Shown: one piece after another, positions 2,702 to 39,058 of the stretch
Layout: each line of letters opens with the position of its first letter
Numbering within the stretch: position 1 is the first letter of the stretch
IMG/VR virus record: IMGVR_UViG_3300010370_000078
Coordinates: 1-40,410 of that record
Direction: 5' to 3' (one strand)
Length of the DNA stretch: 40,410 nucleotides
DNA from: a virus
Notes under the pieces: model-generated
Databases searched by the model: none
What the model was told of the DNA's origin: nothing
What the model saw: the letters and a program-made list of their open reading frames with translations, nothing else
Translations under genes and position numbers: made by a program

Positions 2702-3403
2702 ATGGCAGGTTTAATTCCGGTCGGTTCTGTTATAGATCCAAGTAGGGATGTTTTTCCTACTACTGGTGCCCATCTTGACGTAAGAGTTATTCCTCAATTT
2801 GGGGCACAAAAAGGTAGGAAAATTAACCCTGAGACAGCTAGATCTTTACTTCAGAATATTTTAATTGGCAAAGATAGAGTCCCCCTGGTTCAAAGACAAG
2901 GAGAAGATTGGCGTTGGAACTTTCCAATCACGTCTAGATTTGGCCCAAGATCAGCACCAACGCGCGGCGCTTCTACTTTCCATAGAGGAATAGATGTTTC
3001 TCTTGGAGTTGGTACACCACTGACTTATAAGGGATATGGAACATATAGACCTGATCATGGGTTTGGTTCCTTGATGACAAGTGATTCACAAGGAAATCCA
3101 TACGAGATTAGATTCCTCCATACTGAACCTGGCAAGCAAGCTTCTGTTGGTTCTTCCAGGGTGCCTGAGGCACCTGTGCTACCTGGTGCTACTGCCCAGT
3201 CCTCCAACCAGAATGTCAACGAAAAACGAAATGATAAATTAATGGAGGAATTGTTGGGTGAACAACAATCTTTAAGAGATGTATTAATGTCTAGTGCAAT
3301 AAGGAAAGCTATGCAACAACGTCAAAGTTCGTTGTTAGATGACTTGCCTTCTTTGCAAGCACAGACATTTACACCAGAACAAGCCATGGCTCTGTTTAGT
3401 TGA
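2702..3403 (+). CDS. M23-like peptidase domain virion protein
   Basis: The 233-residue protein has a middle region like LytM/M23 zinc peptidases, which cut peptidoglycan cross-links: PITSRFGPR (75-83), FHRGIDVSLGVGTP (93-106) with candidate ligands His94 and Asp98, and IRFLH (136-140). The family's final HxH pair is incomplete here: His140 is followed by Thr-Glu, not x-His, so activity is uncertain. A variable linker and a Gln/Leu-rich tail follow. The protein ends in Phe-Ser, shared with four other proteins in this region. It sits among virion genes and is probably a tail or internal virion protein. Confidence 0.55.
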   Translation: MAGLIPVGSVIDPSRDVFPTTGAHLDVRVIPQFGAQKGRKINPETARSLLQNILIGKDRVPLVQRQGEDWRWNFPITSRFGPRSAPTRGASTFHRGIDVSLGVGTPLTYKGYGTYRPDHGFGSLMTSDSQGNPYEIRFLHTEPGKQASVGSSRVPEAPVLPGATAQSSNQNVNEKRNDKLMEELLGEQQSLRDVLMSSAIRKAMQQRQSSLLDDLPSLQAQTFTPEQAMALFS

Positions 3404-3412
3404 TTACCCCCA

Positions 3413-3420
3413 CTTATAAT
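3413..3420 (+). promoter_or_regulatory. Putative -10 element (TATAAT)
   Basis: A CTTATAAT box lies 24 nt before the GTG start at 3444, in the short gap after an M23-like gene. No matching -35 box is visible. Similar CTATAAT boxes precede the genes at 6013 and 17060. Confidence 0.35.
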
Positions 3421-3443
3421 GAAATTCAACCAGGTCGCAAACT

Positions 3444-3905
3444 GTGCATTTAAGTGATTTTGACAAAAGTAGAGTTAGATACCATCTAGGTTACTATGTG
3501 GTTTCTGTTCCAGCAGGCGACTATGCCCGCCTGGAAGAAGCTCTCAATACAGTTCCTGATTCTTATTTCTACGATAAAATCATTATTCAAATTGGTCGTT
3601 GTGATACAGCTGAAAAGAAAACTGAAGTAGCACTTACACCATCTACTCGCGTTGAAAACATTGCTGGTGACGTTGATCGTACAATCCGCTCCAGTAATGC
3701 CAAAGAAGCCTTAAAGGTTTGGGATGAAATATATTTGTATGAAACTAATCGTTTAGCTCATATTCTTTATGTACCCAATTACAAAGATCCTTTCCAAGCC
3801 CGTTACCGTTACGAACGTTCAGGTGCGGAATTCATCCAGGCCCTTCCTGGGCCTGCAGACACTTCCATAGGTTCTCGTATCTTGTTACATGGGGTTTGGC
3901 GCTAA
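3444..3905 (+). CDS. Conserved virion protein of unknown function
   Basis: The 153-residue acidic protein starts at GTG 3444 and ends with TAA overlapping the next ATG. The N-terminal half carries short hydrophobic strands (HLGYYVVSVPAGDY; DKIIIQIGRCDT). The C-terminal half is rich in Tyr and Arg (PFQARYRYERSGAEFIQA). No family is recognised. Size, position between head and tail genes, and translational coupling to the next gene suggest a tail-completion or head-tail joining protein. Confidence 0.45.
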   Translation: MHLSDFDKSRVRYHLGYYVVSVPAGDYARLEEALNTVPDSYFYDKIIIQIGRCDTAEKKTEVALTPSTRVENIAGDVDRTIRSSNAKEALKVWDEIYLYETNRLAHILYVPNYKDPFQARYRYERSGAEFIQALPGPADTSIGSRILLHGVWR

Positions 3906-5002
3906 TGAAAGACCTTTTTAGACAACTTTTCTTGCAGGCAAGTCGTAGAGTTTCTCCTCAAGTCAGGAAAACTATACGTGGATTTGGTTCATCGATTCCA
4001 ACAGCCATTAACCCTTTTACAACAAGAACACCGACTACAATTGCAGGAAATGTCGGAAAACTCCTTAATCCGCTTAATCCAGCAAATTTAGGAATGTTGG
4101 CTGCAGGACAAGCCATCTCATCGCTTGTACCAGCGGATAATCCACTTAAGGGTAATCTTGAACTACTAAGCTTTACCCCTGGTGGAGTACCTGGCAAACT
4201 TGGAACAGCTCTTCTTTTTGGTGCTGTGCCAGTTGCTTCTGGTACGCTTGACGCAGCTGCTGCAGAATTTTCTACTAATCCTGCAATTCGACCAAGAGGA
4301 GAACGTATTGGTAAAAGAAACCAACAAGGTCAATATTGGGCAGGAGAAAATTGGGGATACCAATCACCTGAGAGCTTTAATCAACTTTATGGAACAAATT
4401 TATCGACGCGTCAAGCAGCCTCACCTTCAATTGCGGGTATTGGTACGCAAGCAGCTGCGCCAAGCTCACCAGTTCTGTCTGATCCAGTAGCGCGAGCAGA
4501 AAACCAAGAACGATCTAGAATTTCACAATTAACCGAACAAGATCCATTACTTAAAAAGTATCAAGTTGCAGAATTATCAAAAGCATATAATGCAGCAAGC
4601 CCAGAAGAGAAAGAAAGAATTGGACTTCAGATATGGGCGACAACTAATCCACGTCTTGCACAACGAGTTCCTCCTGGTCAGGTAGGTTATATGACATCAG
4701 CCGCAATGAGTGGCACACAAGTCTTTGGGAGTGACTTTCCTGGGATTACACAAACATCTTATCAACAAGCATCTGAAAAAGCCAATAATATTCCCTTTAC
4801 AGGAATCAATACACCAGATATGAATGCATATGGGTTGGGAGCTAATGTACAACAGATTGGTGTTTCTTCTCCAGGGGGTGCACCTATTCCTATGTTTGGC
4901 AAAGATGTCTTTAACAAGAGGTTTGATATTCCTTCAAGTGAAGATTTGAGCCAGACTCAACTCGCCCTATTAAAGCGTGCTTTTGAAAATAGGTTGAAAT
5001 AA
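3905..5002 (+). CDS. Ala/Pro-rich virion protein of unknown function
   Basis: The 365-residue product starts at ATG 3905, which shares its A with the TAA of the preceding gene. An upstream in-frame TTG at 3896 is less likely. The first 130 residues are basic then hydrophobic and Pro/Gly/Ala-rich, with several segments that could be buried or membrane-active (MLAAGQAISSLV; LLFGAVPVASGTLDAAAAEF). The rest is polar and Gln/Ser-rich. No catalytic motif is seen. An internal or ejected virion protein is possible. The next gene, a transglycosylase, follows after 4 nt. Confidence 0.45.
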   Translation: MKDLFRQLFLQASRRVSPQVRKTIRGFGSSIPTAINPFTTRTPTTIAGNVGKLLNPLNPANLGMLAAGQAISSLVPADNPLKGNLELLSFTPGGVPGKLGTALLFGAVPVASGTLDAAAAEFSTNPAIRPRGERIGKRNQQGQYWAGENWGYQSPESFNQLYGTNLSTRQAASPSIAGIGTQAAAPSSPVLSDPVARAENQERSRISQLTEQDPLLKKYQVAELSKAYNAASPEEKERIGLQIWATTNPRLAQRVPPGQVGYMTSAAMSGTQVFGSDFPGITQTSYQQASEKANNIPFTGINTPDMNAYGLGANVQQIGVSSPGGAPIPMFGKDVFNKRFDIPSSEDLSQTQLALLKRAFENRLK

Positions 5003-5006
5003 CAAG

Positions 5007-5726
5007 ATGTCAAGTGAACGCCAAATACTAGAACAATGGGCCGCTCAGAATCCAGGTCTTTTCAGAGGCCTTCAGAGGGCTATTTCAGGAGCTGAAGGAA
5101 CGCTTCGCGGTGGTAGGCCAGGATATGATGTGATGTTTGGTGGAGGCAGGTTTACTGACTTCTCGCGTCATCCAGATCGTGTCATCAGATCCCAAAGCGG
5201 CGTAGCAAGTGCTGCTGCAGGTGCCTATCAGTTTATGCCAGGTACATGGTCAGGCGTTCAACAACGTCTTGGCTTAAATGATTTTAGCCCGCAATCTCAA
5301 GACATTGGGATGCTTAAAAAGGTCAGGGACAGGCTAATGCCCCTTGGTGGCCTGGCTGCAATTACTAAAGCAGGTCAACTGACACCAGAGATTCAAAATG
5401 CATTAGCACCTGAATGGGCATCTTTTCCAACTCTCAGCGGAAGAAGTTTTTATGGTCAACCAGTAAAAAAATCTGATCAAATACAGAAATATTTCAATGA
5501 AGGGATGGCTTCTTCTGCGCCACTTCCTCAAAGCACCTCACAGGCTAGCCAGAGAGTTGAAAAAGGAAATAGCTTTGGAAGAGGCCTTATTCAAACAGTA
5601 ATTGATTCAATGAAATACCTTCCAATGACAACAGGCATTCCTTCACTACTGGATACGCCTCCTTTGGATAGCAGTAGTTTTCTTAAGGCTTATCAGATGT
5701 TTTTTGATCCCGAGGAGTTTAGCTAA
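5007..5726 (+). CDS. Virion-associated lytic transglycosylase, GH104-like
   Basis: The 239-residue protein resembles the lambda R endolysin family (GH104), which cleaves the glycan strand of peptidoglycan. Visible matches are AISGAEGT with candidate catalytic Glu30, YDVMFGGGRFTDFSRHP (40-56), AAAGAYQFMPGTW (69-81) and LGLNDFSPQSQD (88-99). The domain fills residues 20-150, and the last 90 residues are a polar extension absent from the free endolysin. With its place among structural genes, this suggests a virion-carried enzyme that opens the wall at infection. It ends in Phe-Ser and overlaps the next start (TAATG). Two other wall hydrolase genes, at 12054 and 20972, probably serve lysis. Confidence 0.75.
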   Translation: MSSERQILEQWAAQNPGLFRGLQRAISGAEGTLRGGRPGYDVMFGGGRFTDFSRHPDRVIRSQSGVASAAAGAYQFMPGTWSGVQQRLGLNDFSPQSQDIGMLKKVRDRLMPLGGLAAITKAGQLTPEIQNALAPEWASFPTLSGRSFYGQPVKKSDQIQKYFNEGMASSAPLPQSTSQASQRVEKGNSFGRGLIQTVIDSMKYLPMTTGIPSLLDTPPLDSSSFLKAYQMFFDPEEFS

Positions 5727-5977
5727 TGGATTGGTCAGTTGAATCGGACTATTTACCAGGAGAGTATCGACGAGCAATTTTAGATAGGTATAACTATGGT
5801 TTACCGGCCAAGATTGAGTACATACAAAATGCATTGCGCAAATTCAAACCAAATGATGATGTTAATTTGTTCCAAGATTTTCTTAACGCTCAACGACTTT
5901 TAGAGCCTGGAAATTTATTTGCGGATAAACTTCCCCAAACGCCCCTTGGAAACTTTGCAAGTTATTTAGACAACTAA
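5726..5977 (+). CDS. Small protein of unknown function
   Basis: The 83-residue acidic protein is translationally coupled to the transglycosylase (TAATG). It is rich in aromatic residues and Leu/Asn (DYLPGEYRRAILDRYNYG; LFQDFLNAQRLLEPGNLF) and looks mainly helical. No family is recognised. Context suggests a virion accessory protein or a partner of the transglycosylase. Confidence 0.45.
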   Translation: MDWSVESDYLPGEYRRAILDRYNYGLPAKIEYIQNALRKFKPNDDVNLFQDFLNAQRLLEPGNLFADKLPQTPLGNFASYLDN

Positions 5978-5981
5978 TTAA

Positions 5982-5990
5982 CCTATAATA
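5982..5990 (+). promoter_or_regulatory. Putative -10 element (CCTATAATA)
   Basis: A TATAAT box at 5984-5989 lies 24 nt before ATG 6013, in a 35-nt gap. Spacing and sequence match the boxes at 3415 and 17027, suggesting a recurring late-promoter form without an obvious -35 box. Confidence 0.4.
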
Positions 5991-6012
5991 AAACTAAGCA
6001 TCTGTAAGCTAA

Positions 6013-6795
6013 ATGTCGTCTACTGCAACGAATAAGTCTCCTGTATTTATTGATCGCCCACTCTATGATTCTGTGAGGGTTACTACACAAATCGCAGGGA
6101 GTGCATCAAACAATACTCTTTTTGTTCAAGGGGGGCAAGTTCCGGCCATCCTTGTGGATATGGATGCCGATTTAAGTGAGGACAACAACAATGGCGGTGT
6201 TGTTGACTCGATTAAAATCGTAAGAAATGATTATTACCGTGCTGCTGACTACGTAGTAAATACAACTACTTCTGGTACTGTTGTTTCTTTTATTAATGGA
6301 CAAGTTGTAAATATCACAACAACCACTCCTTTGACTGGTAGTGGAGCAGCTAGTGGTGTTGGTTATTACACTTATACAGGAAGTACCACACTTACTGGTG
6401 TAAATACTGCAATTCATTATTCAGGGGGATTGGCAGAAGGTTTTGTATATAACGGCGTTAATTACGGTAATCAGCCTGCCGTGACCTTTGTGGTGTACCA
6501 TACTCGTGGAACCACCGCCCCAATTCCTGCTAATGGTGACTACCGTCTCGTATTCGCCAAAACCGTACCGGCCAACACACAAGAGGTGGACTGCTCAGAC
6601 GTGCTTCCGGTTTTGGCTGTACCTGGGATTGCTGCTGGCAATACCAATGGGCTTGGCAACACTGCTCCTTTACGGAATAAAGGAATTTATTTAGAACGAG
6701 GAGATAGGCTTTACGTTGGTGTTTTTCCTGATACACCAAATATTTCTGGTTATGCTCCAGGTGCGCATGTGATTGCACAAGGTGGATTTTTCTAA
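6013..6795 (+). CDS. Beta-rich structural protein
   Basis: The 260-residue protein is dominated by Thr, Val, Gly, Asn and Ser in alternating strands, for example in residues 75-130 and the TFVVYHTRGTT segment, typical of virion surface or tube proteins. No enzymatic motif or signal peptide is seen. It has its own TATAAT-like box and is followed after 3 nt by a large structural gene. A tail, decoration or adaptor role is likely but cannot be distinguished here. Confidence 0.5.
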   Translation: MSSTATNKSPVFIDRPLYDSVRVTTQIAGSASNNTLFVQGGQVPAILVDMDADLSEDNNNGGVVDSIKIVRNDYYRAADYVVNTTTSGTVVSFINGQVVNITTTTPLTGSGAASGVGYYTYTGSTTLTGVNTAIHYSGGLAEGFVYNGVNYGNQPAVTFVVYHTRGTTAPIPANGDYRLVFAKTVPANTQEVDCSDVLPVLAVPGIAAGNTNGLGNTAPLRNKGIYLERGDRLYVGVFPDTPNISGYAPGAHVIAQGGFF

Positions 6796-6798
6796 ATC

Positions 6799-8373
6799 AT
6801 GGCTAAAAAGATTGGAAGCTCCTTTGGAAACTTTCAAGAAACCAAACCATTTACACCAGGAAAAATAAAACCAATAACAACTGAATTTTCCAAAGGCAGT
6901 ATTCCTGACTCAATTTATACTACCAACAGAGAATCGGCATGGACACGTTGGCGCAGAGGATTTGAACTTGCGTCAGCAACAACGCATAACAACGACTACA
7001 ACTATCGTTTCAAATATGAAATACCAGTAACAACTACAAGTGGCAATGCTACGCCAACACTCTCTGGTTCATTTGTAGGTTTTCCTACCAAAAATAAAGA
7101 GCTTGGTATGCATTGGGCAGTATGGCGTTACGCTGGCTCAGTCCGTTGTGATAACCTTACAGATCCAGTAAGCAACGATAAATTGTATATCGAATTAGTT
7201 ACAGAAGATAGTGAAAATTGGTATGTAAAACTTAAAGGTAGCTGGAGCAATGCAAACCCACTTCCAGCTCCTTTTTATGTTTCAGTACCAGGGCAGCCAA
7301 ATGGTTTACGTCCGGCAACAACTGAGATTTTTGAAGACAGAGTTATTGTTGCTGGTGGAGACATAATTAACAAAGAAACAATTAACCCAACAACACAAAC
7401 TAGATATGGCTATGTTCAATCAGTTCTTACTGATATAAATCCTTTTACAGGCATACTTACATTTAAGAAAGCAGGTTCTGTTCAGGTAACGCCAGATGCA
7501 GTTTTTGTAAGTCCATCACCAATTGGATTTACCCCTGGAAGATTTCTTATAACAGGATCACGTTATGTATGCACATGCCAGGACTTTACGCATCGTGATT
7601 ATGCCTACATGTCAACCAGTGGAAAAGGAAATAGCAAACAATTTCCAATGTCACGACTATCGACAATTAAACCCGGTCGGTTTGAACTGACAAAAACAGA
7701 TGGAAAACTTGACGATAGAGCAATGACACCTGCAAATGTAAATAGAAATATGGAAGTTTTTACGCCAGAAGGGTTTGATCTTGATTACACGGTAAGTAAT
7801 GACTCAAATGTTGACTTAAAAGCAACGCGAGACAATCCTGGCGTCTATCGTGAATTTGGATTTATCTATACAAGAGGGACAAAGAATATTTCAATACCAG
7901 GATCAAGTTCAGAAGGAATGCCTGGATACGATGATTATTCTTCTTCCTTGGTGTCTACTGATGGTAACTCAATTCCACAAGATGTGATTCTTAGTATCAC
8001 AGACAACTGGACACCTTTACTGGATGAATTACGATACTGCAAACACATATATGCACTCAAGTTTAGAGATAGACTTTTTCCACCAGAGCCCTCTGACTTT
8101 CCAGTAGGAATTACTGCAATGAGTGAATGGGAACAGAAATTAGTTGAACAAGCACAAAAAGAACAACAGGACTTATCTGATTTCAACGAAACAAAAAGAG
8201 CCTTGGCATTGATGGATGTACCTCCATACAATTGCCAGGCTCCTTTGATTTACCCTATGCTTCAAAAGCTTTTTAACATTGTTACAGATCAAATCTCAAT
8301 TGATCATTTCACAATGTTTGATAAGAGAGGTAAACCTTATGTACCAGCTCTTAATCAAAGGCCTGAGCCTTGA
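6799..8373 (+). CDS. Large virion structural protein, probably tail-related
   Basis: The 524-residue protein begins with a short basic, Pro-rich leader (FTPGKIKPITTEF). A long mixed beta region follows, with many aromatic residues (NRESAWTRWRRGFELAS; HWAVWRYAGSVRCDN). The C-terminal third is charged and helical (SEWEQKLVEQAQKEQQDLSD). A Cys pair in YVCTCQDFTHRDY (near residue 255) is conspicuous. No catalytic motif is recognised. It follows the previous gene by 3 nt. Its last 19 nt overlap an oppositely oriented HTH gene. A tail tube, tail sheath-like or portal-proximal protein is possible. Confidence 0.5.
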   Translation: MAKKIGSSFGNFQETKPFTPGKIKPITTEFSKGSIPDSIYTTNRESAWTRWRRGFELASATTHNNDYNYRFKYEIPVTTTSGNATPTLSGSFVGFPTKNKELGMHWAVWRYAGSVRCDNLTDPVSNDKLYIELVTEDSENWYVKLKGSWSNANPLPAPFYVSVPGQPNGLRPATTEIFEDRVIVAGGDIINKETINPTTQTRYGYVQSVLTDINPFTGILTFKKAGSVQVTPDAVFVSPSPIGFTPGRFLITGSRYVCTCQDFTHRDYAYMSTSGKGNSKQFPMSRLSTIKPGRFELTKTDGKLDDRAMTPANVNRNMEVFTPEGFDLDYTVSNDSNVDLKATRDNPGVYREFGFIYTRGTKNISIPGSSSEGMPGYDDYSSSLVSTDGNSIPQDVILSITDNWTPLLDELRYCKHIYALKFRDRLFPPEPSDFPVGITAMSEWEQKLVEQAQKEQQDLSDFNETKRALALMDVPPYNCQAPLIYPMLQKLFNIVTDQISIDHFTMFDKRGKPYVPALNQRPEP

Positions 8374-8576
8374 AGCACTCCTTTTTTGCTGAGTTCTTCA
8401 CTGATTTTACCTACGTTCCAACGGAATGACTCCCGTGAGCGGGTTTCGGGAAATGCTGCGAAGTGGGGTCCAAGGCGGAGCGTACCATCATCACGCATCT
8501 TGAAGAGATCACTTTTGCTGAGCCCCAGCAGCTCGCTGGCCCTGCTTGCGCTGACCCAGGCAGTGGATGCAGTCAT
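8355..8576 (-). CDS. Small helix-turn-helix DNA-binding protein (host-like)
   Basis: The 73-residue product has an excisionase/MerR-like winged HTH: WVSASRASELLGLSKSDLFK followed by a wing region with FAAFPETRSRESFRWNV. Such proteins bind DNA as regulators or recombination directionality factors. The gene lies antisense inside an otherwise rightward structural cluster and overlaps the tail of the 524-aa gene. It is clearly GC-richer than its neighbours, which suggests acquisition from a higher-GC host. The start is ATG at 8576. No integrase is visible nearby, so an excisionase role is unproven and a transcriptional regulator is equally possible. Confidence 0.65.
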   Translation of the reverse strand: MTASTAWVSASRASELLGLSKSDLFKMRDDGTLRLGPHFAAFPETRSRESFRWNVGKISEELSKKGVLQGSGL

Positions 8577-8684
8577 GAGCGTAAAATCGTGGACAAGATC
8601 AAGCTAGCAAGCACAGGACCCCCCTGGAAGGTTCTTTTATGAATGTTTAATCATTTGTAATAGATACCCCTTTTGCCTGCTCAG

Positions 8685-8693
8685 GGTAAAATA
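8685..8693 (+). promoter_or_regulatory. Putative promoter (GGTAAAATA) before 905-aa gene
   Basis: The 150-nt gap upstream of ATG 8727 contains GGTAAAATAAAATATA and then TTATCAAGTAAAC. The second string is repeated exactly upstream of the gene at 20625. These shared strings suggest a common late-promoter or regulator site. Confidence 0.4.
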
Positions 8694-8726
8694 AAATATA
8701 ACGGCGTTATCAAGTAAACATCTGAT

Positions 8727-11444
8727 ATGGGACTTTCGTATAATCCAGAAACGAAAAAGTGGAGTAAGACATATGAAAAAACAGATTATCCAATTAAGGG
8801 TCCCGCAAGTGATTCAATTACTGTAAAAGTTACATTTTTTACGGGTTATTCTTCCTTCTGGCTGCCCCTCCTCAAAGAAAAAACTCTTGAAATACCTGTA
8901 AATACTCCAGCAAACGATGTTTCGAGAATCATTAGTGAAGCAGGTGGTGAAGGATATAAAAAGTATGGATGGGCTTACTTTGGAACATTACCAAGTAGTA
9001 ATTCTCTTACACCTTCTAATAATAATGCTCAAAATGAAATTTTTAAAAGTCTTATAAACCAAATAGAAACAAACAGAAATCACAAACTTAAAGCAGAAGC
9101 AGAAGCTAAAAATGCAGCATACGATAAAGTAATTACGACTGCAAGCTCAACTCAAGGAGGAGATTATGTAACACAAAGAGATATTATTAGGAACTTACCA
9201 GGTATCAATGACACTGTAAAAAGCGCACTTGAGAATAATTTTAAAGCTTTTTATCAAACTGAAAAATTAGTTCCTTGGAATGTTAGCTTAGGGGCAAAAC
9301 CTCCATACGGAACTTTTGATGTTGAGTATTACAAAAATCAAAACCCACAATTGGTTCAGCAGTGGAATGAAGCAGTAGCTAATGACGATCTTGACATTGT
9401 TGGTCAGTATGGGGAGGCAATGATTAATAATGATCCGAATATAACAAAAGAAGATGTTAATAGTGGTTATGCTTTTTATCTTCAGCATTATACGAACGTA
9501 GGTAAAGCAGCTGGACAACGTGCTAACAGAGTACAGCCTTTAAAAGCATCTGAACAATATGTAGAAAAAGCTCCTACAGACGTTGAAAAAAGTCAAATTA
9601 AAGACCTTCAACTTAATGTAGATTTTGATACAGCTACAGAACGTTTACTTAGGATTCCAGAAGTAGCTGCTGCTTGGGAGAAAGCTAAAGAAGGTGATCC
9701 CTACTGGGAAGCAAAAGGAAAAGAATTCTTTTTGGATGCAAATAAACCAGATGAATTTGTTGCTTTATTTAGACTTTCTGATCGGCAAGAAGATAAGGAT
9801 GTTGTTTTTAACTACAACATTAATGCAGGTCTTCCTACTGGAATAACGGATTTAGAAGACGCAATTAACCAAGTCATTGGTGAAAAAGGAGAAGTAGAAG
9901 TCAAAAAGTTTGGTGCACTTACTCAAGATGCCCTAAAGCAAACAATAGATGAAATGAAAAAAGCAAAAGCAAAAGAACAAAATATTGCACTTCTTTCTGG
10001 ACTTGGTCCGTTTAGAGAAATCATGGATATAAATAAAACATTAGCTAATTCCATATTAGGAGACTCGGGAGTAGGCGGGATACTTAGTTTTATGGGTGCA
10101 GACAAAAAAGAAGAAGATCTTGAAAAATCTTTACAAGGCATAACAGGAGTGAATAACAACAATACTATTTATAACTGGCAAAAATGGTTTGATAACACTC
10201 TTAAAAAAAGGTATGAACAAGAAATTGAGCTTGGCCTATCCTCAGAAGAAGCTGAAGAAAAAATTAAAATTGAAGGTGATTTTGCAAGAAAATTTATTCA
10301 AGATTATTTAATCCCTCGTTTTGATGAATCTCGTTCAATGGATGAGTTTGTTGAATATATAGATGTTCGCCAAGAAGAACAAAATCCTTTTCAGACACAA
10401 ACTCTTAGAGAATCTTTAAGATTACTTGCAAATACGCGTGCTGAAGATCTTTTAAAAGAATTAAGCAGCGCAGATGACCGTCGTTTTGATTTTAATTTTT
10501 ATTTTAACCCTACAGGAGATAAAGCTAGGGAAGAAAGATATACAGAACAGGCAAAGACAGTTGCAGAAGATTGGGAGGCTGCTAAAAAAGGAGATGAGTA
10601 TTGGGCTTCACAGGCCTACAGATTTGGAGTAAATGTAAATGATAAAGAGGAATTTGCACGCATGCATTATCAAATCAAAGGTAAAGGTAGAAATTACGAT
10701 GGAGCAGAAGATATTTATAACGCTAGCAAAATAAGAGAAAAAATATTTAATGACATACTTCCTTCTTTAGAAATTAGGGCGGAGTCTATAGGCACAGTCT
10801 TTGGTGACTTTATTAAACCAGAAGAGTTCGCAGATGAAATCTTGAAGGGTGTTGATCCAAGTAATAAAGAAGAGTGGAACAAATTATTAAAACAATACGA
10901 CCTTGATAATTTTAAAGGTACGGTTGATGAAGTCAAACAATATATCATAGAAGCATTGAGTACAGGAGCTGCGCAAAAAATAAGAGAAAGTATTAAGTAC
11001 CTAAATGAAAAAGGAAAAAGACCTACACAAGAAAACTTAGGCATTACTTATATCGAAAGAGAAGAAGACTATAAAAAAAGCACAAAAGCAGAAACCGCTT
11101 TATTTAAAACATTCCAACAAGCAGGCTACAAAGGGACAGAAGATGAATTCTATGAAAACTATTTTCCAGATGTTGATAGGTCAGAACAAATTGCATTAAC
11201 AAAAGCAAGTTCTGGTGAAGGTCTTGAATTTATGAATTTAAAGTTAGACGATCCTTACACTGCTTTGGGATCAATTGAAGATTTATTTGGAAGAAGTGAA
11301 GAGGAGGAAGAAGAAACTGATAATGATACCGATAGAGATAGTTATTTTAGAATTGGCATTGATGATGATGATTTACCTGGTAAATCAAAAGCAGGTCAAA
11401 GCTTTTTAGGAGAATTTACATCAATGTTTAAGGGGTTTAGTTAA
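8727..11444 (+). CDS. Very large Lys/Glu-rich virion protein with internal repeats
   Basis: The 905-residue, highly charged, helical protein is too acidic and polar for a typical tape measure but large enough for an internal or ejected virion protein. Residues near 197-260 contain YYKNQNPQLVQQW and later AFYLQHYTNVGKAAGQRAN, like repeat units of the Y-Y-x-x-x-N-P-x-V type seen in bacterial surface proteins. Two diverged copies of VAxxWExAKxGDxYW followed by a Phe and an EF core occur near residues 312-350 and 611-648, indicating internal duplication. An Asp/Glu-rich stretch precedes the end, which is FTSMFKGFS, almost the same as the tail of the 130-aa protein at 13715. The stop overlaps the next ATG. 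Confidence 0.6.
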   Translation: MGLSYNPETKKWSKTYEKTDYPIKGPASDSITVKVTFFTGYSSFWLPLLKEKTLEIPVNTPANDVSRIISEAGGEGYKKYGWAYFGTLPSSNSLTPSNNNAQNEIFKSLINQIETNRNHKLKAEAEAKNAAYDKVITTASSTQGGDYVTQRDIIRNLPGINDTVKSALENNFKAFYQTEKLVPWNVSLGAKPPYGTFDVEYYKNQNPQLVQQWNEAVANDDLDIVGQYGEAMINNDPNITKEDVNSGYAFYLQHYTNVGKAAGQRANRVQPLKASEQYVEKAPTDVEKSQIKDLQLNVDFDTATERLLRIPEVAAAWEKAKEGDPYWEAKGKEFFLDANKPDEFVALFRLSDRQEDKDVVFNYNINAGLPTGITDLEDAINQVIGEKGEVEVKKFGALTQDALKQTIDEMKKAKAKEQNIALLSGLGPFREIMDINKTLANSILGDSGVGGILSFMGADKKEEDLEKSLQGITGVNNNNTIYNWQKWFDNTLKKRYEQEIELGLSSEEAEEKIKIEGDFARKFIQDYLIPRFDESRSMDEFVEYIDVRQEEQNPFQTQTLRESLRLLANTRAEDLLKELSSADDRRFDFNFYFNPTGDKAREERYTEQAKTVAEDWEAAKKGDEYWASQAYRFGVNVNDKEEFARMHYQIKGKGRNYDGAEDIYNASKIREKIFNDILPSLEIRAESIGTVFGDFIKPEEFADEILKGVDPSNKEEWNKLLKQYDLDNFKGTVDEVKQYIIEALSTGAAQKIRESIKYLNEKGKRPTQENLGITYIEREEDYKKSTKAETALFKTFQQAGYKGTEDEFYENYFPDVDRSEQIALTKASSGEGLEFMNLKLDDPYTALGSIEDLFGRSEEEEEETDNDTDRDSYFRIGIDDDDLPGKSKAGQSFLGEFTSMFKGFS

Positions 11445-11821
11445 TGGCTGACAAACATAAAAAAGCAGCAACAGCTGCAAAAATACATAAGGACTCAATG
11501 CCTTGTAACAAACCAAGGAAAACCCCTGGGCACCCAACTAAATCACATGTTGTAAAAGCCTGCAAAGGTGGACAAGAAAAAATCATACGCTTTGGGCAGC
11601 AAGGCGTTGAAGGAGCTGGTAAAAACCCAACAACAGAAAAAGAAAAAGCAAGGCGTAAATCTTATTATGCAAGACATAATGCACAAGATTCACGACCAGA
11701 CATTATGTCCGCTAGGTACTGGTCTCACCGAGTAAAGTGGATGATCTTAAGTGGTATAATTTTACCAGAATTTTTGAACACATGTCTTAACGCTGGAACT
11801 ACGTTTCTACAAACTGTGTAA
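11444..11821 (+). CDS. Small basic protein (DUF6321-like)
   Basis: The 125-residue Lys/Arg-rich protein contains a block at about 40-97 with EKIIRFGQQGVEGAG, then KARRKSYYARHNAQ and then SARYWSHRVKW. I associate this block with a small uncharacterised family (DUF6321-like, from memory) found in phages and giant viruses. Its basic character suggests DNA binding or packaging. The last 25 residues are hydrophobic (MILSGIILPEFLNTCLNAG) and unlike the rest, so the end may be altered or form a membrane anchor. It is coupled to the 905-aa gene and precedes two more tiny basic genes. Confidence 0.6.
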   Translation: MADKHKKAATAAKIHKDSMPCNKPRKTPGHPTKSHVVKACKGGQEKIIRFGQQGVEGAGKNPTTEKEKARRKSYYARHNAQDSRPDIMSARYWSHRVKWMILSGIILPEFLNTCLNAGTTFLQTV

Positions 11822-11822
11822 A

Positions 11823-11891
11823 ATGCAAATGGCTATCAAAAAAACAAAAGTTCATACCCGCAGATACGCGCTAAAACAATGGGCAAAGTAA
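11823..11891 (+). CDS. Tiny basic peptide (22 aa), tentative
   Basis: ATG at 11823 opens a 22-codon frame, MQMAIKKTKVHTRRYALKQW and two more residues, 1 nt after the preceding stop. It overlaps the next gene's start. The basic, aromatic composition matches the neighbouring small basic proteins, but length alone makes it tentative. Confidence 0.35.
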   Translation: MQMAIKKTKVHTRRYALKQWAK

Positions 11892-12004
11892 AAGTAACTA
11901 CGCAGAAAAAAGAATCAAAACCTAAACGCACAAAGCAAGGTGATGGTCAACATTCCAAGGCCAATCACGGACGTAAGAAAAGTCGCGGGCAGGGAAAAGG
12001 CTAA
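11879..12004 (+). CDS. Small basic Gly/Lys-rich protein (41 aa)
   Basis: The frame from ATG 11879 to TAA 12002-12004 encodes 41 residues that are nearly half Lys, Arg, His and Gly, including QGDGQHSKANHGRKKSRGQG. Tiny proteins of this form are common beside structural genes in cyanophages and may bind DNA in the head. No defined domain is present. It overlaps the preceding 22-codon frame. Confidence 0.5.
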   Translation: MGKVKVTTQKKESKPKRTKQGDGQHSKANHGRKKSRGQGKG

Positions 12005-12030
12005 CACTTTGTTATGAATAAGTTTATTAT

Positions 12031-12049
12031 AGTGAGTAACTCGCTCACT
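12031..12049 (+). promoter_or_regulatory. Hairpin just before the lysozyme start codon
   Basis: AGTGAG (12031-12036) pairs with CTCACT (12044-12049), leaving a 7-nt loop. The ATG follows 4 nt later, with a TATTATAGT -10-like string directly upstream. No separate Shine-Dalgarno is visible, so the hairpin could delay translation of the lysis enzyme. Confidence 0.4.
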
Positions 12050-12053
12050 TCTG

Positions 12054-12668
12054 ATGTTTGGTGACTACACTTCTGCAATCGACATCATTAAAAGATATGA
12101 AGGGTTTAATGAAAAGGCCTATCCAGATCCTGTGAGCGGAGGAGCCCCTTACACTTTTGGGTATGGAACCCAGTTTTATCCTGATGGTTCTCCAGTAAAG
12201 CAAGGTCAATGTTGCACAAAACAAAAAGCTGAAGAGTATTTAAAACATGAGCTTAAAATCATTGACATTGAATTAGATAAATTAGATCTTGACCTAGATG
12301 CTGACATGTACAATGCGCTGCTTTCATTTATCCATTCGGTTGGTTGGGATCCTTTTTTCTACAGTACAATAATTGATTCGATTGAAACTGAGGATTGGTA
12401 CGGAGTAGTAGAAAATATAAGTCGCTGGATTTTTGATCATTACTATAAAGTTATTGGTGGTTTAGTTAATAGGCGCAGGGAAGAAGTGGCTTTGTTTTTA
12501 GCAAATTTAAAAGATGAATGCAAACCTTTAGGCGGTATTCTTTTGGCAACATTCAGAAGTTACTCAGGAGAACCTCACGAAATCAATGCCATCCTGGAAC
12601 TTGAAAAAAACTTGAATCCTTATGTCCTTGCAGATTTTGTTAATAAGTTTGAAAGCAACTTCAGTTGA
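12054..12668 (+). CDS. GH24 phage lysozyme (endolysin)
   Basis: The 204-residue muramidase hydrolyses the MurNAc-GlcNAc bond. The T4-lysozyme-like catalytic layout is visible: KRYEGF with Glu16, Asp25, and YTFGYGT around residues 33-39. Further family signatures are ALLSFIHSVGW (about 88-98) and VIGGLVNRRREEVALF (about 137-152). The GH24 domain occupies residues 5-155 and the remaining 50 residues form an extension. There is no signal peptide, so release would need a holin, or the protein may be virion-bound: it ends in Phe-Ser like three structural proteins and the transglycosylase. A hairpin abuts its start codon. Confidence 0.85.
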   Translation: MFGDYTSAIDIIKRYEGFNEKAYPDPVSGGAPYTFGYGTQFYPDGSPVKQGQCCTKQKAEEYLKHELKIIDIELDKLDLDLDADMYNALLSFIHSVGWDPFFYSTIIDSIETEDWYGVVENISRWIFDHYYKVIGGLVNRRREEVALFLANLKDECKPLGGILLATFRSYSGEPHEINAILELEKNLNPYVLADFVNKFESNFS

Positions 12669-12724
12669 AGTATGGGCAACGAAGTCCCACAGTCACTAGA
12701 ATCTGATTAGAGTTTACTTGAAAA

Positions 12725-13021
12725 ATGGAACAAAATATTCGTGTAAGTGAACTGGGGCTTCCGCTTCAGATTCAGTTTGCCATGCGCAAAATGCGCATGG
12801 AAGCAGAAGAAATGACATGGGATCAATTACTTGAAGCTTTTCTGGGCTTGTACCAAAAGCGTTTAGTTGAATGGGCTGCGATTAAAGATATGCTTGCAGA
12901 TGAAAACATTGAGTTGGAATTTGATATTCCAACTCAAATGGAGATTCAACAAATTACTTCATTGGTCAATGAAAGCAAGGGTGAAGATGAGGACGACAAC
13001 AAGGAGTTTTCATTCGTCTAA
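12725..13021 (+). CDS. Acidic small protein of unknown function
   Basis: The 98-residue protein has an amphipathic helical middle (IQFAMRKMRMEAEEMTWDQL, LLEAFLGLYQKRLVEW) and a very acidic tail. No family is recognised. The 56-nt gap before it holds GTTTACTTG, the reverse complement of the CAAGTAAAC string found before genes 8727 and 20625. Its 3' end overlaps the convergent DUF3310 gene by 12 nt. Confidence 0.5.
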   Translation: MEQNIRVSELGLPLQIQFAMRKMRMEAEEMTWDQLLEAFLGLYQKRLVEWAAIKDMLADENIELEFDIPTQMEIQQITSLVNESKGEDEDDNKEFSFV

Positions 13022-13288
13022 TTTTTGGATTAAACGGTCGAGGTACCAACGCGCTTTCATTGCATCTTGCTTTGGATTACCTTTAGACCAAAGACGATCA
13101 ATATATTTAATTACTTGCCACTGAAGCCCACCAAGTATTGCATCTGGTGCAAACTGAACTGCATCTTCAATTTTATCTATTGTTTCAATTTTTTTATCAG
13201 GGTTGCAATAATGTGAGGGATGATTTACCATGTCAACTTTTGGTTTAAGGTTTGGCATGGGACAGAAGCCATCCTTGCACTCAACCAC
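13010..13288 (-). CDS. DUF3310 family protein
   Basis: The C-terminal half matches the DUF3310 pattern common in phages: VNHPSHYCNPD, then ETIDKIEDAV, then WQVIKYIDRLWSKG, then KARWYLDRLI. The role is unknown; older annotations of some members suggested a nucleotide kinase. The start is uncertain: GTG 13288 and ATG 13258 lie just after the stop of the upstream leftward gene, while the frame stays open to 13465. The longer N-terminal part looks like an antisense shadow of the GC-rich upstream gene. CKDGFC before the domain resembles the leader of cyanophage homologues, favouring GTG 13288. Confidence 0.7.
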   Translation of the reverse strand: MVECKDGFCPMPNLKPKVDMVNHPSHYCNPDKKIETIDKIEDAVQFAPDAILGGLQWQVIKYIDRLWSKGNPKQDAMKARWYLDRLIQKLDE

Positions 13289-13317
13289 AGGTAGTTCACT
13301 GGGGCCGCAGCCGGGCT

Positions 13318-13677
13318 CTACCGCCTTAAACCACGGCGACGCATCGACATCTCTTTCTCCTCCTCCGTGGGCCCCCCAAGCTCCAGAACCAGGGCTTTCG
13401 GCTTCGGTGACGCACCCATCTCCAGACCTTGCTCCATGCTCGGAATGTAACCTGTCAATCCGCATCGTTCAGTACCCTCAATTTGGAGGTTGGTACGCTC
13501 TCGACCCTGTTGGGTGAGAACCAGGCCCCTATTATACATGTCTTGCAAAGGCACGTCATTCATTTCGTTATCCAACGAAGCATCAAAATCTTCTTCAGAT
13601 AAACAACGTTTTAAGACCTCATCATTTGTTATATATTGATCTAGAAATGCATCAGAAAACCCAGGTGCATGCATCAT
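13318..13677 (-). CDS. Unknown protein upstream of DUF3310
   Basis: The 119-residue protein starts with MMHAPGFSDAFLDQYITNDE and ends in an Arg-rich tail (MSMRRRGLRR). The first 60 residues are acidic and natural-looking, and the last 60 fall in a GC-rich patch (13.3-13.5 kb) unlike the flanks. The frame stops at 13318, 30 nt before the likely DUF3310 start, so the two may be coupled. Because the DUF3310 frame is open through the overlap, a frameshift fusion is conceivable but no slippery site was identified. It is divergent from the gene at 13715 across a 37-nt gap. Confidence 0.55.
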   Translation of the reverse strand: MMHAPGFSDAFLDQYITNDEVLKRCLSEEDFDASLDNEMNDVPLQDMYNRGLVLTQQGRERTNLQIEGTERCGLTGYIPSMEQGLEMGASPKPKALVLELGGPTEEEKEMSMRRRGLRR

Positions 13678-13696
13678 TATCTTTGATTAAAATTCC

Positions 13697-13709
13697 TTCA
13701 TTTAAAATG
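13697..13709. promoter_or_regulatory. Palindrome in a short divergent promoter region
   Basis: The 37-nt gap between leftward 13677 and rightward 13715 holds the palindrome TCATTTAAAATGA (13697-13709). Its position between divergent starts makes it a candidate operator or overlapping promoter pair, though AT-richness raises the chance of coincidence. Confidence 0.3.
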
Positions 13710-13714
13710 ATATC

Positions 13715-14107
13715 ATGAAAAAGTTCTTTGAATCTACTTACGATCCACGGCAGCGCTCTGGTACTTCAGGTGCAGAAATCTCTGATTTGAATCCAGAACA
13801 AGCTTATGACACAGACTTAAGACGTTTAGATCGTACGGAAAGGGATATTGCAGATACAGTTGATATTCGGAATGATAGACAACAAGGTAGAGTTGAGAAA
13901 TACATGGCAGCAGCAAAAACTGCTGGTGAATATAAGCAACGTGCTTCAATTGATGAGCCACAAATTCGTGGTCGCACACCAAGGAGTGAAGCAAGCATTA
14001 ACGGTGTAACACTTCCAAGTCAAGGAGATACGGCTGGGCCTGCTGGTAGTACAAATTATGCACGCAAGCCCAGCCCGTTTACAGGAACTTTTAGAGGATT
14101 TAGTTAA
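13715..14107 (+). CDS. Small polar virion-type protein with FRGFS tail
   Basis: The 130-residue, disordered-looking protein is rich in Arg, Asp, Gln and Thr (DLRRLDRTERDIADTVDIRN). No domain is recognised. Its end, PFTGTFRGFS, is nearly the same as the end of the 905-residue virion protein (FTSMFKGFS), suggesting a shared C-terminal docking signal. The 3' end overlaps the convergent dCTP deaminase gene by 4 nt. A minor virion protein is likely by this shared tail. Confidence 0.5.
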   Translation: MKKFFESTYDPRQRSGTSGAEISDLNPEQAYDTDLRRLDRTERDIADTVDIRNDRQQGRVEKYMAAAKTAGEYKQRASIDEPQIRGRTPRSEASINGVTLPSQGDTAGPAGSTNYARKPSPFTGTFRGFS

Positions 14108-17822: not shown

Positions 17823-20570
17823 ATGTCGTACGGCACGATTAAAGTCAATACAATCACCTTTACAAACAATGGTGTTGATCAAAGTGTAACTGTATCTGGT
17901 ATTGTAGCTTCGACTTCAGGAAACCTTACGGTCACTGGAACGGTAAGTGGATCTACGGCTTCCTTTGCAAATGGTATATTTAACACTTTTAGTGGCGGAA
18001 CCTGTACGATTACTTCTGGTGTTTTAGCGTCGGGAACGGCAAGTAACCCGGCTATTAGTTTCAATGGGGATGTAAACACTGGTATTTACAGCCCAAATGC
18101 AGACGAAATTGGATTTACTACTAATGGTCAGGCTAGGTTTATTATCGATGCAAATGGTCAGCTAGAAGCTAGTTCTGCTGGCAGCGCTTCTTTGCCGACA
18201 TATACGTTTGCAAATGATGTTGACACAGGACTGTACAGTCCTGGAACAAACCAATTAGCTTTATCTGCAGGTGGAGTCGAACGCGCCCGTATCGACAGCT
18301 CCGGCAGGTTGTTGATTGGTACGTCTACGAGCAGGTCAAGCTCACTCAACGCAGATGGAAATCTTTTTCAAATCGTCGGGTCTCAAACCTTGTCGCGAAC
18401 GTCTGACGACGCAAATGCACAATACATTGAGTTTGTAAAGGGCCGCGCTGCTAGTGCTGCAGTTGTAGGTAACGATGTCCTTGGGCGTATTCTATTTGAA
18501 GGCTCTGATGGAACAAGCCCAATCATAGCTGCTGAAATTCGGGCGCTCGTAGACGGCACCCCCGGCGCCAACGACATGCCAGGCAGGTTGGTGTTTTTAA
18601 CCACTGCCGATGGAGCAAGCAGTCCTACAGAACGGATGAGGATTACTTCTGGCGGGAACGTGGGGATTGGCACTACGAGTCCTGGCGACCTACTCCATGT
18701 GATGGAAAGTAGCGCTTCGGCGGTAGTAGCCTCTGGAGCGTCTGTGGCTCAGTTTGAACGGGCAGGCAATGTTGGGATTACACTGTTTACTGCAGACACG
18801 GGCGACGCATCTATATTTTTTGGTGATACAGCGTCGTCGACAGTCGGACGTGTTGTTTATGGCCATTCAGATGATTCAATGCGGTTGTGGGCAAATAGCC
18901 TTGAACGCGCCCGCATCGACAGCTCCGGCAGGCTCTTAGTTGGCACGTCTACAAGCCGTTCCATGGCAGGATATGGAAGCAGCTTGCAGCTTGAAGGGGC
19001 CACAAATTATCAATCTGCATCCGCAAGCATTATTCATAACAGAGCTGATAATGGAGGGCCAGAGTTTCGTTTTGCCAAATCAAGGGGAACAGCTCAAGGC
19101 TCTGTAAACATTGTTGCGTCAGGCGACATCTTGGGCAGGATCATGTTTTATGGTGCCGATGGGTCGGTAATGACTCAGGCAGCAAACATTTCTGTTGAAG
19201 TAGACGGTACTCCTGGCGTTACTGACATGCCGGGTCGCTTGATGTTCAGTACTACTCCTGATGGGGCAGGGTCTCCTGTAGAACGGATGAGGATTACTTC
19301 TGGCGGGAATGTGGGGATTGGTACCTCCAGCCCAAGCACACGACTTGCCATAGTAGGGAAATCAGTAGATGGCGTTATAGCTCAATTTAGGCCGTCATTA
19401 AGTGATATTTCTGATATTGCACGAATTGAATTATTGGGAAATAACAGCACTGGCACTGCATCGCAGCAAGTTTTCTTTGATGCTTATCAGCCCAGTGGTG
19501 GTACAGGCACAGACGCCGCTTTAGACATTCGTGTACGCAAAGGCGGAGACAGTTTTAACTCGCCTTCTACAATTATGACCTTGCTTGGCTCAGGCCGAGT
19601 GGGGATTGGCACTGCAAGTCCTACGTCACCTTTAGATGTAAGGACTGTTAATGAAGGAAATCGGTCAAATGTATTACTGATAGGCAATAATGGCACAACA
19701 TCCGGATCAGCAGCAGCTATTAACATTGCCACCGGAAGCGATGGTACGGCAGGAAGAACTAGAGGTCAAATTATCTGTGATTCTGATGGAAACGACAACG
19801 GTTATATTGCTTTTGTTACTAGATCTTCAGGCTCTTTGCCAGAACGCGCCCGCATTGACAGCTCCGGCAGGTTGTTGATTGGCACGTCTGCAAGTGTTCC
19901 AGTGCTTGTCGAAAGCGGCTTGCAGCTTCATTCAGTAGGCGCAAATAGTTGGCTAAATATCGGTCGCTGGTCAAACAATTCTGAAAACGCTGGATTTGTG
20001 TTTTCAAAATCGAGGGGTGCAGGAGTAGGAACAAGGGCTGCTGTTTTGTCTGGAGATAGTCTTGGCGCAATATATTTTAGCGGAGACGACGGTTCATCAT
20101 TTGTCAATGCCGTACAAATTACAGCTCAAGCGGATGGCACCCCCGGCGCTAACGACATGCCAGGCAGGTTGGTGTTTTCCACTACTGTTGACGGAGCAAG
20201 TAGTCCTACAGAAGCACTAAGAATCACAAACGATCGGGTTATTGCTTACAACCAAGCAGCTCCCGTCAGCAAGAGCACTGCAGCAACGCTTACGATTGAA
20301 GAACTCAAAAATGGCATTATTCAATACACTGGCAACGCACAAACGCTAACGCTTCCCACTGGCACATCATCCGAAGGTGGCTTCAGTGGTCTTTACAACA
20401 ACATGACTTTTGAGTGGTCAGTGATCAACACAGGAAGCGGCACCTGCACGGTTGCAGGTAATACTGGTCATACCGTTGTTGGCGCTGGTGCTGTTGCTGC
20501 AGGATCATCTGGACGCTTTGCATCAAGGCGAACTGTCGCCAATACGTTTGTTACTTATCGGCTTTCTTGA
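17823..20570 (+). CDS. Long tail fibre protein with near-identical repeats
   Basis: The 915-residue receptor-binding fibre is built from two interleaved repeat modules. Module A, ERARIDSSGRLLIGTSTSRS and variants, occurs at nt 18279, 18903 and 19842. Module B, around TPGANDMPGRLVF followed by ERMRITSGGNVGIG, occurs at nt 18552, 19203 and 20132. At the DNA level, repeat copies are far more alike than the segments between them, indicating recent recombination or gene conversion. The C-terminal 100 residues (after SKSTAATLTIEELKNGIIQY) are a non-repetitive tip. No intramolecular chaperone motif is seen. The fibre probably determines attachment to host surface glycans. Confidence 0.75.
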   Translation: MSYGTIKVNTITFTNNGVDQSVTVSGIVASTSGNLTVTGTVSGSTASFANGIFNTFSGGTCTITSGVLASGTASNPAISFNGDVNTGIYSPNADEIGFTTNGQARFIIDANGQLEASSAGSASLPTYTFANDVDTGLYSPGTNQLALSAGGVERARIDSSGRLLIGTSTSRSSSLNADGNLFQIVGSQTLSRTSDDANAQYIEFVKGRAASAAVVGNDVLGRILFEGSDGTSPIIAAEIRALVDGTPGANDMPGRLVFLTTADGASSPTERMRITSGGNVGIGTTSPGDLLHVMESSASAVVASGASVAQFERAGNVGITLFTADTGDASIFFGDTASSTVGRVVYGHSDDSMRLWANSLERARIDSSGRLLVGTSTSRSMAGYGSSLQLEGATNYQSASASIIHNRADNGGPEFRFAKSRGTAQGSVNIVASGDILGRIMFYGADGSVMTQAANISVEVDGTPGVTDMPGRLMFSTTPDGAGSPVERMRITSGGNVGIGTSSPSTRLAIVGKSVDGVIAQFRPSLSDISDIARIELLGNNSTGTASQQVFFDAYQPSGGTGTDAALDIRVRKGGDSFNSPSTIMTLLGSGRVGIGTASPTSPLDVRTVNEGNRSNVLLIGNNGTTSGSAAAINIATGSDGTAGRTRGQIICDSDGNDNGYIAFVTRSSGSLPERARIDSSGRLLIGTSASVPVLVESGLQLHSVGANSWLNIGRWSNNSENAGFVFSKSRGAGVGTRAAVLSGDSLGAIYFSGDDGSSFVNAVQITAQADGTPGANDMPGRLVFSTTVDGASSPTEALRITNDRVIAYNQAAPVSKSTAATLTIEELKNGIIQYTGNAQTLTLPTGTSSEGGFSGLYNNMTFEWSVINTGSGTCTVAGNTGHTVVGAGAVAAGSSGRFASRRTVANTFVTYRLS

Positions 20571-20580
20571 TAAAAGCCAT

Positions 20581-20603
20581 TTATCAAGTAAACTGCTAAA
20601 ATT
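20581..20603 (+). promoter_or_regulatory. Putative promoter sharing strings with capsid and 905-aa genes
   Basis: The gap before ATG 20625 holds TTATCAAGTAAAC, identical to the string before gene 8727, and then CTGCTAAAATT, identical to that before the capsid gene. The combination suggests a common late regulatory site with TAAAAT as the -10 box. Confidence 0.45.
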
Positions 20604-20624
20604 GTAAAGAATATTTTCATCTCT

Positions 20625-20933
20625 ATGGCCACTACCTTTTCTTGGAAAATCGCAAATCTTGAGCGGGAAACTGCAGATGGCTTTGTGTACACTTGTCACT
20701 ACACAGTCACTGCAGATGACGGTACATACACCAGCGGTGCTTACGGAAGTCTTGGATTAGAACGCCCAGAAAATCTTATTCCGTTTAGTCAATTGACTGA
20801 AGAAATTGTTGTTGATTGGGTGAAGGACAAGTTTGGCGCTGAGAAAGTGGCTGAAATTGAAGCCGCTCTACAAGCTCAACTTGATGAACAACATGCTCCT
20901 AGTAAAGCAACTGGTGTTCCTTGGACTAATTGA
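20625..20933 (+). CDS. Conserved small cyanophage protein (DUF7936-like)
   Basis: The 102-residue protein has a distinctive pattern: FSWKIANLERETADGFVYT, CHYTVTADDGTYTSGAYGS, then LTEEIVVDWVKDKFG and a Leu/Ala-rich helix ending in GVPWTN. I recognise it as a protein widespread in marine cyanophages and other marine phages, of unknown function. The fold looks like a small beta sheet followed by a helix. The neighbouring fibre and endolysin genes suggest late expression and a virion or fibre-associated role. Confidence 0.65.
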   Translation: MATTFSWKIANLERETADGFVYTCHYTVTADDGTYTSGAYGSLGLERPENLIPFSQLTEEIVVDWVKDKFGAEKVAEIEAALQAQLDEQHAPSKATGVPWTN

Positions 20934-20974
20934 TTGACATACCCTAGAGTTAAGAAAAGCTCTAGGTCAATATG
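20934..20974 (+). promoter_or_regulatory. Hairpin sequestering the endolysin ribosome site
   Basis: CCTAGAG (20943-20949) pairs perfectly with CTCTAGG (20960-20966). The outer TTGA (20934-20937) can also pair with TCAA (20967-20970). The only Shine-Dalgarno-like AGG lies in the 3' arm and ATG 20972 follows at once. Such a structure could hold back endolysin synthesis until late infection. Confidence 0.5.
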
Positions 20975-21961: not shown

Positions 21962-22116
21962 AGTGTAAGAGAAATCCTGAAATAAAAGTCAACATTTGTT
22001 GGCATGTAGAAAACGAAAAAAAATGCGTAACACTTCCAAAAGAAGAAGCGTACGCAATAAGGGAATGGGTTGAACGCGAAGGGGGTGTTGTGATGTGGTT
22101 TAATGCAGTGAATTAA
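21958..22116 (+). CDS. Small unknown protein after endolysin
   Basis: The 52-residue protein starts at ATG 21958 within the ATGA overlap of the endolysin stop. It has three Cys in the first half (KCKRNPEIKVNICWHV; KKCVTLPKEEAYAIREW) and a hydrophobic end. No family is recognised. Tight coupling to the endolysin suggests a lysis accessory role. It overlaps the convergent holin-like gene by 4 nt. Confidence 0.5.
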   Translation: MKCKRNPEIKVNICWHVENEKKCVTLPKEEAYAIREWVEREGGVVMWFNAVN

Positions 22117-22277
22117 CGCTGCTTAGCTCGACCAATATTTAAGGCAAGGAACTCAAGAACTTTGTAAAGAAACCCAAGAAAATCATCATCCTTTTTGGTA
22201 GGTGTTAAAGCACAAATAAGCGAAGCAGTTGCATGAATTGCTAAAGCAATTTCAACGTACTGATTAATTTTTTCCAT
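22113..22277 (-). CDS. Holin-like small membrane protein
   Basis: The 54-residue protein has a hydrophobic helix at about 7-24 (YVEIALAIHATASLICAL), then TPTKKDDDFLGF and a second amphipathic stretch (YKVLEFLALNIGRAKQR). I have seen similar small peptides in cyanophages next to lysis genes. Size and the membrane helix fit a holin or related lysis protein. It is convergent with the endolysin unit, which is unusual for a holin and lowers confidence. Confidence 0.5.
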   Translation of the reverse strand: MEKINQYVEIALAIHATASLICALTPTKKDDDFLGFLYKVLEFLALNIGRAKQR

Positions 22278-22322
22278 GGCTAACAAGTAAGTCCTTTTCT
22301 ATTTTACGTAAGGTTGTTTACA

Positions 22323-23024: not shown

Positions 23025-23048
23025 GGTGCTTTTTTAAAAGTCTAGCAA

Positions 23049-39043: not shown

Positions 39044-39058
39044 CAAGAGGATTTTCTA

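Follow-up and report, generated by a model that had tools for sequence, protein, structure and literature searches.

A swap-resistant C-terminal module on exchangeable cell wall hydrolases of S-EIV1-like cyanophages as a candidate virion anchor

INTRODUCTION

How wall-cutting enzymes are fixed in phage particles is poorly known beyond a few models. In tailed phages, virion-associated lysins combine the EAD with a structural anchor (PMC8310338). T7- and P22-like ejection proteins are internal virion proteins among which wall-hydrolase domains have been swapped, and the C-terminal residues of one of them, T7 gp16, are important for infectivity (PMC8954989). Encapsulin cargo carries a short conserved C-terminal sequence, found on unrelated proteins whose genes lie close to that of an HK97-type shell (PMC7355545). 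In T4, a capsid targeting sequence, the N-terminal 10 residues of IPIII, which are processed, directs diverse proteins into the phage head (PMC9026906).

We focused on a 40,410-base virus record (referred to as the window here), which starts at the capsid gene and was assigned to the lineage of Synechococcus phage S-EIV1, a lineage of cyanobacterial viruses. The original prediction for this DNA was that five proteins, three of them wall hydrolases, share a C-terminal Phe-Ser (FS) tail that loads them into the virion. As in virion-associated lysins, wall hydrolases lie here among virion genes, and an extra part is proposed as a particle anchor; in contrast to them, the short C-terminal modules of two separate hydrolases are related, and at one of the two loci at least four enzyme types have been exchanged onto the module with fixed borders. 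The likeness to ejection proteins lies in the putative internal virion proteins and the swapped hydrolase domains; they differ in that the hydrolases here are small and separate and that no sequence or fold relation was found between the 905-amino-acid (aa) protein of the window and T7-like gp14, gp15, or gp16. Unlike encapsulin peptides, the conserved unit, a candidate for loading, is either a module of ∼60 to 75 aa or a protein-specific tail. A single short C-terminal peptide on unrelated cargo of the same operon was not found, since FS is not conserved on the GH24 protein or on most proteins of the GH104 locus and no motif is common to all tails. Nor was an N-terminal 10-residue peptide of the T4 type found, the conserved segment here being C terminal.

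RESULTS

The only isolate found for this lineage is Synechococcus phage S-EIV1 (KJ410740, 79 kb), whose identity to the window is 53% in the 905-aa protein and 70% in the 130-aa protein, and numerous IMG/VR contigs fall into the same lineage. The capsid protein is 87 to 91% identical across 21 long contigs, so that a conserved partner would be available for C-terminal anchors. In S-EIV1, the portal gene is at 57537 to 59840 and a lysozyme gene at 65728 to 66387, and the counterpart of the 130-aa protein has 129 aa. S-EIV1 has an additional head block upstream of the region where the window begins. On one contig (L082, positions 19619 to 23072, corresponding to 49.6 to 53.1 kb of S-EIV1), this block encodes several small proteins with strongly conserved or aromatic C termini (SNLVSGFWG/S or GSFSF; GLASMMSNF; QRAYRY), some of them with glycine-rich stretches. 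At the expected site of the 387-aa capsid gene in KJ410740 (60784 to 62010), only a 156-aa open reading frame (ORF) and an antisense ORF are annotated, which suggests a frameshift or sequencing error in that record.

The enzyme encoded at the GH104 locus, taken as the ORF flanked by the 368-aa and 83-aa genes, varies from genome to genome. When these proteins were clustered without their last 75 residues, they formed four groups, and at least four unrelated hydrolase types occur at the locus among the relatives: GH104-like, PF18013 tail lysozyme, SLT-like, and Hydrolase_2-like. The peptidoglycan-hydrolase domain is assigned by homology, to phrog_90 in the window, to PF18013 (Phage_lysozyme2; E = 2e-36) in S-EIV1, and to SLT with a match near the cutoff; the Hydrolase_2-like group corresponds to phrog_12490. 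Across the four catalytic clusters, the C-terminal parts are homologous, with E values of 3e-38 (L152/L159), 9e-37 (G001/G002), 2e-32 (G008/G009), and 3e-14 (window/G004).

Three close genome pairs (G008/G009, G001/G002, and G014/L159) differ by enzyme swaps with the same borders. On the 5′ side, DNA identity is 86 to 93% up to ∼15 nucleotides from the start codon (the called start in G009 is probably too far upstream), and on the 3′ side it is 80 to 95% back to 60 to 63 codons before the stop. The swaps thus replaced the enzyme part and left the C-terminal part in place. These swaps show the last ∼60 residues to be tied to the phage backbone, unlike the enzyme part. The positions of this module and of the other features are given in Table 1.

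TABLE 1 Features of the window discussed in this study
Feature	Position	Strand	C-terminal end or remark
M23-like protein, 233 aa	2702–3403	+	..MALFS; C-terminal module from about 3218, NEKRNDKLMEELL...TPEQAMALFS
GH104-like protein	5007–5726	+	..PEEFS
Exchangeable catalytic part of GH104-like protein	5007–5546	+	phrog_90, endolysin
Conserved C-terminal module of GH104-locus protein, last ∼60 codons	5547–5726	+	EKGNSFGRGLIQTVIDSMKYLPMTTGIPSLLDTPPLDSSSFLKAYQMFFDPEEFS
905-aa protein	8727–11444	+	..FTSMFKGFS
Predicted disordered acidic C-terminal linker of 905-aa protein	11214–11444	+	Residues 830 to 905, pLDDT under 50
Conserved tail of 905-aa protein	about 11412–11441	+	EFTSMFKGFS, closes the acidic linker
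GH24 lysozyme, probable endolysin	12054–12668	+	..ESNFS
130-aa protein	13715–14107	+	Conserved YA.KP box, then aromatic tail
Aromatic tail of 130-aa protein	about 14078–14104	+	FTGTFRGFS

The module is predicted to be flexible and poorly ordered, with isolated helices of some amphipathic character, although the underlying alignment is shallow and gappy, making the low pLDDT weak evidence. It diverges strongly among phages of the S-EIV1 lineage. Scans of the C-terminal part against Pfam and PHROG gave no significant match to a wall-binding domain, the nearest being a weak, sub-cutoff DUF3597 hit in one relative (L065).

The C terminus of the M23-like protein is related to this module over ∼60 to 75 aa. 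Comparing the C-terminal 75-mers of both proteins, we found that 12.7% of pairs exceeded the 99th percentile of shuffled sequences (42% of pairs within a genome), compared with 0.2% in three control comparisons. Similarity within genomes was higher than between genomes in all 20,000 permutations, and no other among 36 families showed the same relation. HHalign ranked the pair first, with a probability of just 6 to 10%, so the homology rests on pairwise evidence. Domain swaps were not seen at the M23 slot, where all proteins join one family. The M23-like protein of the window and its clade keeps the HxxxD motif and lacks the HxH pair of M23 enzymes, which is found in 15 of 35 homologues; these proteins may therefore be inactive. 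In relatives, the M23-like protein usually ends in an aromatic and a small residue.

All five ORFs described as ending in FS are present in the window. Given that FS makes up 38 of 11,982 dipeptides in its proteins, five such ends exceed chance by composition (P = 9e-10 for at least 5 of 15 proteins and 7e-7 for at least 5 of 52, both figures being post hoc). The codons differ among the five genes (TTT AGT, TTT AGC, and TTC AGT) and the tail codons vary synonymously in relatives, showing that the feature lies at the protein level; a repeated DNA element or 3′-end gene conversion was thereby ruled out. FS ends all five proteins in the window only: no examined relative has the complete set, and the near relative G001 has FS in the M23-like, 905-aa, and 130-aa proteins only. 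The tail is conserved in relatives for the 905-aa and 130-aa proteins and mostly for the M23-like protein, but not for the GH24 protein, and F-[SA] ends the GH104-locus protein only in some near relatives. Relatives have the GH24 domain with other ends (..SFDSWD, ..LIFNG), and many GH104-locus proteins also end without FS (..EEEEV, ..NPFGFLQ). For these two proteins, this is the outcome that the original prediction named as its refutation, and one FS signal loading five cargoes is not supported. A cross-family profile search found no motif common to all C termini, the 905-aa/130-aa pair ranking second of 703. The FS dipeptide is best read as the form that these C-terminal ends take in this one phage.

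The 905-aa protein is lineage specific and of unknown fold. Searches against PHROG, PDB sequences, and PDB folds gave no match, and its strongest viral match is a 901-aa protein with 52% identity, consistent by length and identity with the S-EIV1 homologue; there was one weaker match besides. From its size and gene position, it is probably an internal or ejection virion protein. In an AlphaFold model, residues 830 to 905 are disordered. Most of 127 distinct homologues retain E-F-T-S-[ML]-F-K-G-[FL], with variable final residues, and the conservation score is 0.61 for the last ten columns versus 0.44 for the preceding forty. The tail thus appears as an island of conservation behind a variable acidic linker. 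The ends of 130-aa protein homologues include GTFRGF(S/A), GTFYGY, FGKxF, and the like, and almost all of them contain an aromatic residue. The hydrolase module was not found in either protein. Most homologues of the GH24 protein are 10 to 25 aa longer, and their end is not conserved as FS; we judge from this comparison that the GH24 protein lies outside the tail and anchor system. A comparison of its last three residues with those of the other four proteins gave P = 0.004, a value suspected to be driven by the window alone and given no weight.

Terminal residues tend to agree within genomes. In the G004 clade, the M23-like protein ends in LFA, the GH104-locus protein in EEFA, the 130-aa protein in GFA, and the 905-aa protein in GFG, and in another clade the hydrolase ends in TPGY and the 905-aa protein in TPKY. 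Last-residue matches within genomes exceeded those of internal columns (P = 0.009), as did last-three similarity (0 of 1,500); these tests were devised after the tails had been seen and handle phylogeny solely through the internal-column controls. Pair by pair, last-three similarity was significant only for the 905-aa and 130-aa proteins (P = 0.005, 61 distinct pairs; 0.03 without FS-FS pairs), and the concordance of the hydrolases with these two was not significant (P = 0.14 to 0.86). Aromatic residues occupy the last two positions in 14.2 of 38 families of the region versus 5.9 expected (P = 3e-4). In S-EIV1 they end 13 of 38 virion-block genes versus 10 of 75 elsewhere (P = 0.01); the excess is absent from the virion genes of T7 (1 of 12) and P-SSP7 (3 of 15).

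Other C termini of the window also stand out. The 260-aa protein at 6013 to 6795 ends in an almost invariant AQGGF[FY] among 67 distinct homologues, some of which are more distant relatives of 189 aa. Two adjoining tail-region proteins at 38810 to 39517 end in DGGTFN and DGGTF, and distant relatives of the 524-aa protein end in INGGTY or LNGGTY. The 98-aa protein at 12725 to 13021, which has a weak NblA match (PF04485 in Pfam, E = 0.008, below the cutoff), has an acidic C terminus, ..DDDDEDELQPF in most relatives, resembling the tail of single-stranded-DNA-binding proteins.

DISCUSSION

Comparison of the loci shows that unrelated catalytic domains carry homologous forms of the putative anchor, that its forms in the two hydrolases are related, and that it stays in place when recombination exchanges the enzyme. 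We lean toward the reading that a C-terminal anchor holds exchangeable hydrolase “warheads” in the virion and that two further proteins bear aromatic tails of their own. The M23-like and GH104-locus enzymes of S-EIV1-like cyanophages, whose genes follow that of the major capsid protein and precede the tail genes, would each consist of a catalytic domain and a flexible, helix-containing C-terminal anchor of ∼60 to 75 aa. By this anchor the enzyme would attach to some conserved part of the virion, such as the capsid interior, the portal, or a core complex, so that one particle could be fitted with enzymes of different cutting chemistry. The short, conserved aromatic tails of the 905-aa and 130-aa proteins are probably docking peptides too. 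Given that the genes, including the GH104-locus gene with its swap-resistant module, lie among virion genes and that virion-associated lysins are known to have structural anchors, virion anchoring would be the simplest reason for the swap pattern. T7 gp16 supplies an earlier example both of an essential C terminus and of swapped domains (PMC8954989).

The partner of the anchor could also be the wall or the other hydrolase. The main rival to a virion anchor reads the module as a cell-wall-binding domain of the kind found in modular endolysins; it would target the hydrolases to host peptidoglycan or envelope, and a common host would account for the similarity within genomes. Such a layout, EAD-CBD with the CBD at the C terminus, is the usual one, domain swapping is common (PMC8310338), and both carriers of the module are hydrolases, while the 905-aa and 130-aa proteins do without it. 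However, the lack of a wall-binding match in the Pfam and PHROG scans and the predicted poor order of the region speak weakly against this reading. The strong divergence of the module within one lineage also counts against it, as do the scarcity and nonspecificity of CBDs in phages of Gram-negative hosts (PMC8310338) and the position of the hydrolase genes in the head/tail block, away from the GH24 endolysin. On balance we consider wall binding unlikely. We are equally doubtful that a common receptor inside the capsid reads the ends of the M23-like, exchangeable-hydrolase, 905-aa, and 130-aa proteins as a C-terminal attachment code, with terminal residues coevolving with it (FS to FA or FG; TPGY with TPKY) and new warheads recombined onto a coded tail.

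The five FS ends could alternatively result from chance and unrelated constraints, each family having its own C terminus and the window happening on FS in each. The restriction of the full set to the window, the longer GH24 homologues without FS, and the failure of the cross-family profile test to yield a global motif, with the 905-aa/130-aa pair second, are in line with this. Against it, the chance by composition is below 1e-6, three of these proteins end in FA in the G004 clade, the 905-aa and 130-aa proteins resemble each other more at their last three residues than at internal positions even without FS-FS pairs, and the swap-resistant module would be left unexplained; we therefore regard coincidence as quite improbable. 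Very unlikely, in our view, is a role after ejection, in which the C-terminal segments would let the M23-like, GH104-locus, and 905-aa proteins assemble, among themselves or with membranes, as part of an ejectosome-like tunnel. T7 gp16 does require its five conserved C-terminal residues for infectivity, and swapping of domains among ejection proteins has been reported (PMC8954989); the predicted, partly amphipathic helices of the segments here would also fit such a role.

Of the original prediction, the broader idea of C-terminal docking survives as the best reading, on account of the 905-aa and 130-aa tails, the hydrolase module, and the FA ends of the G004 clade, while the notion of one FS signal in five proteins does not. 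The real finding is the modular hydrolase with its putative anchor. Natural swaps with fixed borders provide a ready map of the enzyme part versus the anchor part, and given that the lineage is widespread and has an isolate, S-EIV1, a virion-incorporation signal becomes directly testable. If heads of the HK97 type do use a C-terminal attachment peptide, the comparison with encapsulins would be useful.
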